Notes under the pieces: model-generated
Seen by the model: the letters and a program-made list of their open reading frames with translations, nothing else
What the model was told of the DNA's origin: nothing
The model's database searches: none
Assembly: GCF_014982725.1 (NCBI RefSeq)
Contig: NZ_JADCJZ010000003.1
Span: 62,001 to 126,000 of the forward strand
Source of the DNA: Thermophilibacter gallinarum
GTDB taxonomy: Bacteria; Actinomycetota; Coriobacteriia; Coriobacteriales; Atopobiaceae
Direction: 5' to 3'
Length of the DNA stretch: 64,000 nt
Shown here: positions 7,455 to 58,057 of the stretch, in pieces
How positions within the stretch are numbered: the first letter of the stretch is position 1
Layout of the letters: every line of letters starts with the position of its first letter
Made by a program: the position numbers and the translations under genes

Positions 7455-7484
7455 TGTTACCGAGGACCCCTGGCCGTCGACGCG

Positions 7485-7786
7485 TCCCGGAATCGGCGAG
7501 GTTCTCCGCTCGTGGGCTTCCCGCGTCCCGGAAATGGCGAGGTTCTCCGCTCGTGGGCTTCCCGCGTCCCGGAAATGGCGGGTTTCCGCAGATCGGAGGC
7601 GTGGCCGTTCCAAAATCGCCGGGGTTCCGCAGGTCGAGCGTGCTCGGCGCGCGGAAAGTCGCCGATTCCGGGACGGCGCCCGGGGAACCCCTCCGATTCC
7701 GGGACGCGCTTCTCGCAGGTGCGGAGAACGTCGCCGATTCCGGGACGACGAGATGCCGAATCGCGGGAACCCCGCGGATTTCCGGA
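7485..7786. repeat. Array A: 41-bp-pitch dyad repeats, four direct then four inverted units
   Basis: Four related units of 23-25 nt start at 7485, 7526, 7567 and 7608, exactly 41 bp apart. They share TCCCGGAAATGGCG and end in TTCCGC or TTCTCCGC. After a 20-bp centre come four units in inverted orientation ending at 7673, 7704, 7745 and 7786; the last three again have 41-bp pitch. Each unit is also a weak dyad, CGGAA-N9-TTCCG. Spacers of about 16-18 bp vary, except that the first two are identical. The same design recurs at 57759-58029. No gene is seen in 7391-7870; the array and the tRNA promoter fill it. Confidence 0.85.
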
Positions 7787-7824
7787 CGGCGCGTCGCCCG
7801 CGCGAAGAATTCTGGAATTGGGGC

Positions 7825-13870: not shown

Positions 13871-14464
13871 GTGGCCAGAAGAGCTCGAATCTTCGTAGTC
13901 TCTGGACCGTCAGGCGTTGGCAAGGGAACGCTCGTCGCGCTACTGCGTGAGCGTCTCTCTTGCCTTGGCCTGACGGTTTCGGCGACTACGCGCGAGCCGC
14001 GCCCCGGCGAGAAGGACGGCGTCTCCTACTACTTCATGGACGACGCCGAGTTCGACCGTCGCGTCGCTGCGGGGGAGTTCCTCGAGTGGGCATGGGTCCA
14101 CGGCCACCGCTACGGCACCCTGCGCTCCGAGGTTGAGCGCGTCCTCGCCTCAGGATCCTCGGTCGTCCTCGAGATCGACGTCCAGGGCGGGCTCTCCGTG
14201 CGGGCGTCCATGCCCGACGCGGTTCTCGTCTTCGTCGAGCCGCCCAGCGTCGAGGAGCTCGAGCGGCGCCTGCGCGGGCGCGGCACCGAGGACGAGTCCC
14301 AGATCGAGACGCGCCTCCAGAACGCCCGCAGCGAGATGGACCGCGCACCCGAGTACGACGTGAGGATCGTCAACGACGACCTCGACCGCGCCTGCTCGGA
14401 GCTCGAAGAAGTGATACACACGTACGAGATGGACGGAGGTCCCTCAGAAGATGTCCGTGATTAA
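13871..14464 (+). CDS. gmk: Guanylate kinase
   Basis: Gmk of 197 residues. P-loop 'VSGPSGVGKGTL' (residues about 9-20), 'TVSATTREPRPGEKDGVSYYF' with the GMP-binding Arg and Tyr residues, and 'VVLEIDVQGG' are conserved. It phosphorylates GMP/dGMP to GDP/dGDP. The GTG start is 1 nt after mihF. Its 3' end overlaps rpoZ by 14 nt. Confidence 0.94.
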   Translation: MARRARIFVVSGPSGVGKGTLVALLRERLSCLGLTVSATTREPRPGEKDGVSYYFMDDAEFDRRVAAGEFLEWAWVHGHRYGTLRSEVERVLASGSSVVLEIDVQGGLSVRASMPDAVLVFVEPPSVEELERRLRGRGTEDESQIETRLQNARSEMDRAPEYDVRIVNDDLDRACSELEEVIHTYEMDGGPSEDVRD

Positions 14465-57732: not shown

Positions 57733-57758
57733 CAGCCTTCTGCGCGAGCTACAGACTC

Positions 57759-58029
57759 TCCTGGAATCGACGGCCTTCCGCAACATGACGCCATCCTTGT
57801 CCAGCTTTTGACGGCCTTCCGCACCTCGATGCCGAGGTCTTCCCGGAAATGGCGATGTTCCGCAGACAGCCGTCAATCCTGTCCCAAAAACGGCGGCCTT
57901 CCGCTGCCGGCGCGCGGTGCGACCGGGGAACCTCGCCGATATCGGGACGCCTTGCCCCTCCGCGTGCGGAAGGTCGTCGAAAACAAGACGGGTCTTTCTC
58001 GCAAGCCGAGAATCCTGTCGACTTCGGGA
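57759..58029. repeat. Array B: 41-bp-pitch dyad repeats, four direct then three inverted units
   Basis: 23-nt units start at 57759, 57800, 57841 and 57882, exactly 41 bp apart; the third reads TCCCGGAAATGGCGA then TGTTCCGC. Inverted units start at 57925, 57966 and 58007, again exactly 41 bp apart. Most units show the dyad (C)GGAA-N9-TTCCG or a decayed form. Units and pitch match array A at 7485-7786, while spacers differ. No gene is seen from 57733 to 58271 other than a possible short leader frame. Confidence 0.85.
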
Positions 58030-58057
58030 CGGCGGCGTGGTCCTACCTGCGGCGCAT

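Follow-up and report, generated by a model that had tools for sequence, protein, structure and literature searches.

In this study, we identified a set of strictly phased repeat arrays in the genome of a gut bacterium of the genus Olsenella/Thermophilibacter (Atopobiaceae). One of them, array A, is probably one representative of a class of double-stranded DNA platforms that is dispersed over intergenic sites, comprises several families and would serve a putative cooperative protein with two DNA-contacting modules. The class is apparently undescribed: literature searches found no description of such arrays, in keeping with a sequence-only reading of the same DNA that knew of no described element of this design, although such an absence is not proof. 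The window analysed here is a stretch of 64 kb and carries two arrays with 15 units in total (8 + 7), as follows.

7483-7788: array A, four forward units and then four reverse units; pitch 41, 41, 41 and then 31, 41, 41 bp
7483-7507, forward strand: array A forward unit 1 (25-bp type I unit), 41 bp before unit 2
7524-7548, forward strand: array A forward unit 2
7565-7589, forward strand: array A forward unit 3
7606-7630, forward strand: array A forward unit 4
7651-7675, reverse strand: array A reverse unit 1, its start 69 bp from the start of the last forward unit
7682-7706, reverse strand: array A reverse unit 2, after a 31-bp step
7723-7747, reverse strand: array A reverse unit 3
7764-7788, reverse strand: array A reverse unit 4
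57757-58031: array B, four forward and three reverse units
57757-57904, forward strand: array B forward half; unit starts 57757, 57798, 57839 and 57880, pitch 41 bp
57925-58031, reverse strand: array B reverse half; unit starts 57949, 57990 and 58031, pitch 41 bp

The forward units of array A open with CGTCC, and its reverse units, counted on the reverse strand, start at 7675, 7706, 7747 and 7788. The junction between forward and reverse unit starts is 69 bp in arrays A and B alike. Array B occupies the recX-rny intergenic region, while array A has the rpoD terminator on one side and tRNA-Asn/pyrR on the other. The sequence-only reading had placed array A between the rpoD terminator and the tRNA-Asn/pyr promoters and had described it as a direct half followed by an inverted half at a 41-bp pitch; position and layout were both confirmed, and its unit starts (7485, 7526, 7567 and 7608) fall in the same register as the forward starts given here, which are exactly 41 bp apart. 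All 15 units were recovered at E ≤ 0.0015 in the 64 kb by a unit profile, with the best match outside the arrays at 0.08; as this profile was derived from the 15 units themselves, the independent test is the remaining genome. A search of the window against Rfam matched tRNA and nothing else, with no array or CRISPR family among the matches.

Profile searches and sampled stretches provided the genome evidence. Far from being alone with its 41-bp pitch, array A proved to have many counterparts when the profile of the 15 window units was scanned over its own and related genomes. The profile gave 155 matches in the own 1.85-Mb genome (G000). Among the 150 matches listed, there were 27 multi-unit arrays and five single hits, two of which are the ends of one more type I array (G000:C1, about 175.5-175.8 kb; L260) and one of which falls in a type III array (see below), bringing the type I total to about 28 arrays. 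The order in the matches listed was always forward and then reverse, a reverse unit never preceding a forward one. Same-direction steps in this set were 41 bp in 83 of 92 cases and 31 bp in six, with 40, 72 and 82 bp also seen, and the junctions were 69 (eight), 110 (seven), 100 (four) and 48 bp (three), with 58, 79, 89 and 141 bp once each; the spacings therefore shift by increments of about 10 bp. Neighbour spacing fitted a period of 10.3-10.5 bp with a resultant of 0.98-0.99 (n = 118) when unit columns 15-20 were taken as reference, but the fit was poor at columns 1 and 13, where R dropped to 0.64. The helical phasing noticed in the window thus holds genome-wide, although for units of opposite orientation the placement on one face rests on columns 15-20 as the reference.

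The type I unit is 25 bp long and of high information, (C/T)GTCC-n-(G/A)(G/A)AATCGGCGR-nn-TTCYC, with columns 1-4 occupied by C/T (83/16%), G (97%), T (100%) and C (99%). Almost no position is conserved in the 16-bp spacer that follows it. All of the 27 multi-unit type I arrays examined were intergenic by simple codon-usage gene calls, lying between tandem (20), convergent (4) or divergent (3) gene pairs, and 17 of the 20 arrays between tandem genes were closer to the 3′ end of the upstream gene. The genes in front of the arrays are functionally unrelated housekeeping genes.

Comparison with the sister species (G004) covered one species pair, with sixteen own-genome loci (about 17 arrays) aligned at about 96% identity. 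With one misaligned array left out of the counts, differences fell on 159 of 2163 unit positions and on 223 of 1457 spacer positions (7.4% versus 15.3%; chi-square, p = 3e-14). The informative unit positions T3, T20, T21, C22, G2, C4 and G16 changed in 0-3%, and the degenerate positions 6, 12, 17 and 19 in about 20%. Given that units diverge half as fast as spacers and that substitutions avoid the informative positions, the units are under purifying selection and the lattice is selected in place. The net indel total inside arrays was mostly no more than 4 nt, exactly 41 or 82 nt in three arrays and of other sizes in a few; a second alignment gave more mixed sizes, owing in part to the flanks that it included. 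In array A, forward unit 1 matches forward unit 2 at 95% identity when the whole 41 bp, with the spacer, is compared, and the sister-species counterpart has one forward unit fewer (spacings 41, 41, 69, 31, 41 and 41 bp). Taking these two results together, the fourth forward unit of array A is probably a recent 41-bp tandem duplication, and growth of the arrays by 41-bp duplication is likely. As a separate observation, two own-genome arrays 4 kb apart (C1:769129 and 773130; L053) correspond to a single array in the sister species (L072), where the 3.9 kb between them are missing, as recombination between the arrays would give.

The arrays are not fixed in place between species. Array B is present at recX-rny in the window species, the sister species retains only its two outer reverse units, and no array was found at this site in 12 further congeners read. 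At two more type I loci the array is missing in relatives: in G007 at one of them, and in both G035 and G033 at the other. These empty loci show that arrays were gained in individual lineages. Such gain is what one would expect if the arrays were non-autonomous transposons (MITEs) with two multi-repeat ends, bound by an IS21-, Tn7- or Mu-like transposase whose subunit spacing sets the pitch, an explanation that we consider possible although on balance unlikely. Each end of IS21 has at least two direct repeats, separated by 23 bp; within a repeat, two HTH modules contact two conserved blocks that lie about one turn from each other (PMC10122671). The arrays likewise combine two-block repeats with several direct copies at each end, their convergent orientation suits paired ends, and a five-unit element of another family (type II, see below), with 3 + 2 units, resembles a left and a right end. 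However, no excess of direct repeats indicating target-site duplication was found at the boundaries of 20 type II and 24 type I arrays, which may be old copies; copies within a genome have their units in common but not their spacers; and orthologous copies are under in-place unit selection, unlike decaying MITEs.

A search among rve-type genes for a transposase that would go with the arrays was also negative. Only one rve-type transposase was found in the own genome, none of the rve elements in seven congeners had 40/41-bp repeat ends, and none of thirteen rve regions read with wide flanks had 40/41-bp double repeats at the ends (one had 22-bp ends). The rve genes that do adjoin arrays belong to insertion sequences that landed inside them, of IS3 and IS30 type judging by their sequence. 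The idea of a cognate rve transposase was dropped, the array-adjacent genes being inserted elements and the others having no 40/41-bp ends. Plasmid, phage and IMG/VR viral-contig collections gave no relevant match. The transposon-end alternative named in the sequence-only reading survives in part: arrays are gained at new sites, but target duplications, an rve element with such ends and plasmid or phage relatives were not found. An IS110-family element (Pfam) sits at the centre of a pitch-40 array of G035, between two unit pairs (L350, 6218-7925), and the inner distance there is 1603 bp against 124 bp normally, which fits an insertion into the array centre. Insertion sequences have landed inside arrays, so that arrays act as safe insertion sites. 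In G018:C64 (L369), rve elements were seen whose ends are 22-bp direct repeats in a Tn7/Tn552-like layout.

Another explanation, which we hold to be improbable, is that the units are CGTC-tagged REP sequences and that a RAYT-type HUH transposase, with single-stranded hairpins as its substrate, moves the arrays as BIME/REPIN-like clusters. The type I unit does carry the terminal CGTC (or TGTC/CCTC) tag, opening with (C/T)GTC as CGTC-tagged REPs do, and, like them, it is dispersed, intergenic, near gene 3′ ends, of lineage-specific families and found in opposite orientations (PMC3733652). CGTC REPs have an 8-9-bp stem with a 4-5-nt loop and form head-to-head dimers, with head-to-tail arrangements negligible and clusters rare (PMC3733652). 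No such conserved stem and loop is maintained in the unit, whose internal pairing is limited to the 4 bp of GGAA/TTCY, with a paired fraction about as expected under independence, and 2-4 direct units at the fixed 41-bp pitch are present in nearly all arrays. The CGGAA-N9-TTCCG dyad that the sequence-only reading noted in each unit is missing in several of them and is not supported as a structural feature; it shows no covariation beyond column composition, a result on which a palindromic REP unit was rejected. A RAYT-like Y1 transposase gene (PF01797), with homologues in G035, does lie in the sister species at the site of an own-genome type I array (L341, 500-1450), but it is bounded by inverted repeats of its own, GAGACAAA..GGGGACAGGTTCATTTGTCTC, that are unrelated to the array units.

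The type I family is not the only one on this lattice. Among the 31 congeners, a number that includes the own genome, two have abundant type I arrays and three have sparse ones. Thermophilibacter provencensis (G035), G012 and G018 carry instead a type II unit with the consensus CGTTGCnGnAAT..GGGGTCGTGGCAG; 20 of the 29 type II clusters examined were a stereotyped five-unit element with steps of 41, 62, 63 and 41 bp or the mirror image, and the remainder were mostly partial versions of it. The rpoD-tRNA-Asn locus itself has a type I array in the window species, a type II array in T. provencensis and no array in three other relatives. A de novo detector, run on sampled stretches of three genomes, revealed families at 40-, 41- and 42-bp pitch and found almost nothing on shuffled sequence. 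The detector also showed a type III unit, GGGTTAAAACTACCGGGTCGTCCCCCT, which stands at 41-bp pitch beside type I in the window's own genome.

L054, 2033-2230: type III array, pitch 41 bp
L252, 1322-1475: type III array, pitch 41 bp
L248, 1520-1640: type III array, pitch 41 bp

Two loci, yaaA-terB (G000, G035) and spoU-def (G000, G033), hold pitch-40 arrays in two species each, and the unit sequence differs every time; none was found at spoU-def in G035, and the sampled number of such shared loci is small. Further repeats were noted in passing: a family of 41-bp pitch whose unit is near CGTTAGAGAATGGGAGCCGTTGCG, seen in two type II genomes (L301 and L281 in G018, L283 in G035), a family GTTTGGAAAACTTGGCGCGTTGCAC at 41 bp in G007 (L306, 231-500), a 42-bp family CTTAAGAATCTGGGGTTGTTGTAGG in G000 (L265, 18150-18410), and, in G035 (L351, 4978-5112), direct repeats of 38 bp, GTGATGACAGAGGTGACGG, accompanied by one inverted copy and by a palindrome in the centre.

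It is quite improbable that the arrays are ordinary operators at which transcription regulators control neighbouring genes. At pitch 40, an array can stand 20-60 bp away from a gene start, examples being the array that separates spoU from def, which are divergent, and the one in front of terB, and these arrays recur at identical loci in different species. Type I arrays, on the other hand, stand behind unrelated genes, mostly nearer the upstream 3′ end, at positions that are not conserved in relatives. 

Related species that share the layout but not the letters point to a DNA-binding system whose target sequence changes from species to species. We tentatively suggest that this specificity might change fast, with related proteins binding convergent phased arrays at many loci and the whole set of sites switching its sequence while the geometry, and at some loci the position, is kept, a logic comparable to that of fast-evolving eukaryotic binding proteins with genome-wide sites. 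In that case the arrays could mark boundaries between chromosome domains or serve as decoys against a mobile element.

A different short repeat was seen in the same genomes. The 13-mer CGTTCTTCTCGCC is present in about 50-190 copies per genome in nearly all of the 31 congeners and in genus g39, with 74 exact copies in G000, one copy with a single mismatch in the window (14006-14018) and near absence from G033; the reversed control gave 0-2 copies per strand. Most copies are in coding sequence, in two frames; intergenic copies are in about twofold excess, and some copies form inverted pairs. The 13-mer resembles a DNA uptake sequence.

A role as long imperfect RNA hairpins, formed by transcribed arrays at the 3′ ends of mRNAs, is highly improbable: most of them do lie directly behind genes, and their convergent halves are complementary up to 79% over 67 nt, but some are between divergent genes, Rfam gave no match, and cognate halves fold no better than chimeras of halves from different arrays (mean -78.5 versus -81.5 kcal/mol at junction 69; -113.3 versus -115.3 kcal/mol at junction 110). 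On the chimera test a long hairpin in RNA or DNA was rejected, and the long imperfect hairpin that the sequence-only reading had envisaged for the two halves is not supported as a functional structure. Given that the hairpin and covariation tests both failed, the arrays are best read as double-stranded DNA bearing asymmetric sites.

On this double-stranded platform we infer protein binding, its cooperativity and the origin of new copies as follows. The 25-bp asymmetric two-block recognition sites, set at steps of about four turns, would point inward in two convergent halves. A putative sequence-specific protein with two DNA-contacting modules would load cooperatively on one face, and the loaded halves would form a symmetric nucleoprotein complex. 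The elements would arise at new intergenic sites, for the most part directly behind genes, much as small mobile repeats do; they would lengthen or shorten by 41-bp units, and selection on the putative binding sites would then hold them. A boundary or insulator role behind genes is possible, as is that of a mobile-element end complex.

If this reading is correct, the genus holds an unrecognised class of chromosomal nucleoprotein platforms in several families, one of which would provide at least 150 putative binding sites in a 1.85-Mb genome, with fixed geometry and a species-specific recognition sequence. It would offer a tractable case of a DNA site set and its binding protein changing together, and the defined lattice would be useful for finding the protein. 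Short-repeat catalogues centred on palindromes overlook a class that is defined by spacing.

Several known systems invite comparison. The sites of SlmA, Noc and MatP are single short palindromes that place tens of selected protein-binding sites on a chromosome. The arrays likewise put tens of selected, putative protein sites over the chromosome, but as phased multi-site convergent arrays and in several families per genus. In CRISPR arrays the direct repeats are identical, of one orientation and accompanied by cas genes, whereas the units here are divergent and occur in both. With MITEs the arrays share small size, non-coding content, inverted symmetry and gain at intergenic sites, but array copies have only units and lattice in common, not spacers. 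Like the ends of IS21, Tn7 and Mu, they comprise several convergent direct repeats per end, each of two blocks and about two turns long, with inter-repeat spacing of the same order; unlike those ends, they enclose neither cargo nor transposase between their halves, show no target duplications, carry up to four repeats on each side, have their units selected in place and, in the genomes tested, are matched by no integrase-type element with such ends. REP, BIME and REPIN elements of the GTAG and CGTC super-families (PMC3733652, PMC3116915) also consist of short conserved units, from tens to hundreds of them in a genome, that occupy intergenic sites with a bias towards those behind genes, form lineage-specific families and stand in opposite orientations; the arrays differ from them in that the unit lacks a conserved stem-loop, that as many as four units follow one another directly, that the spacing is fixed at 41 bp with helical steps and that the order is strictly convergent. 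In REPIN/RAYT systems the repeat flanks the RAYT gene; the RAYT-like gene seen at one array site in the sister species is flanked by inverted repeats other than array units. The arrays are thus closest to REP/BIME/REPIN sequences and to multi-repeat transposon ends, yet the hairpin, target-duplication and cognate-element tests were negative, and the best reading is therefore a dispersed intergenic repeat that works like a putative multi-site protein-binding platform of double-stranded DNA.
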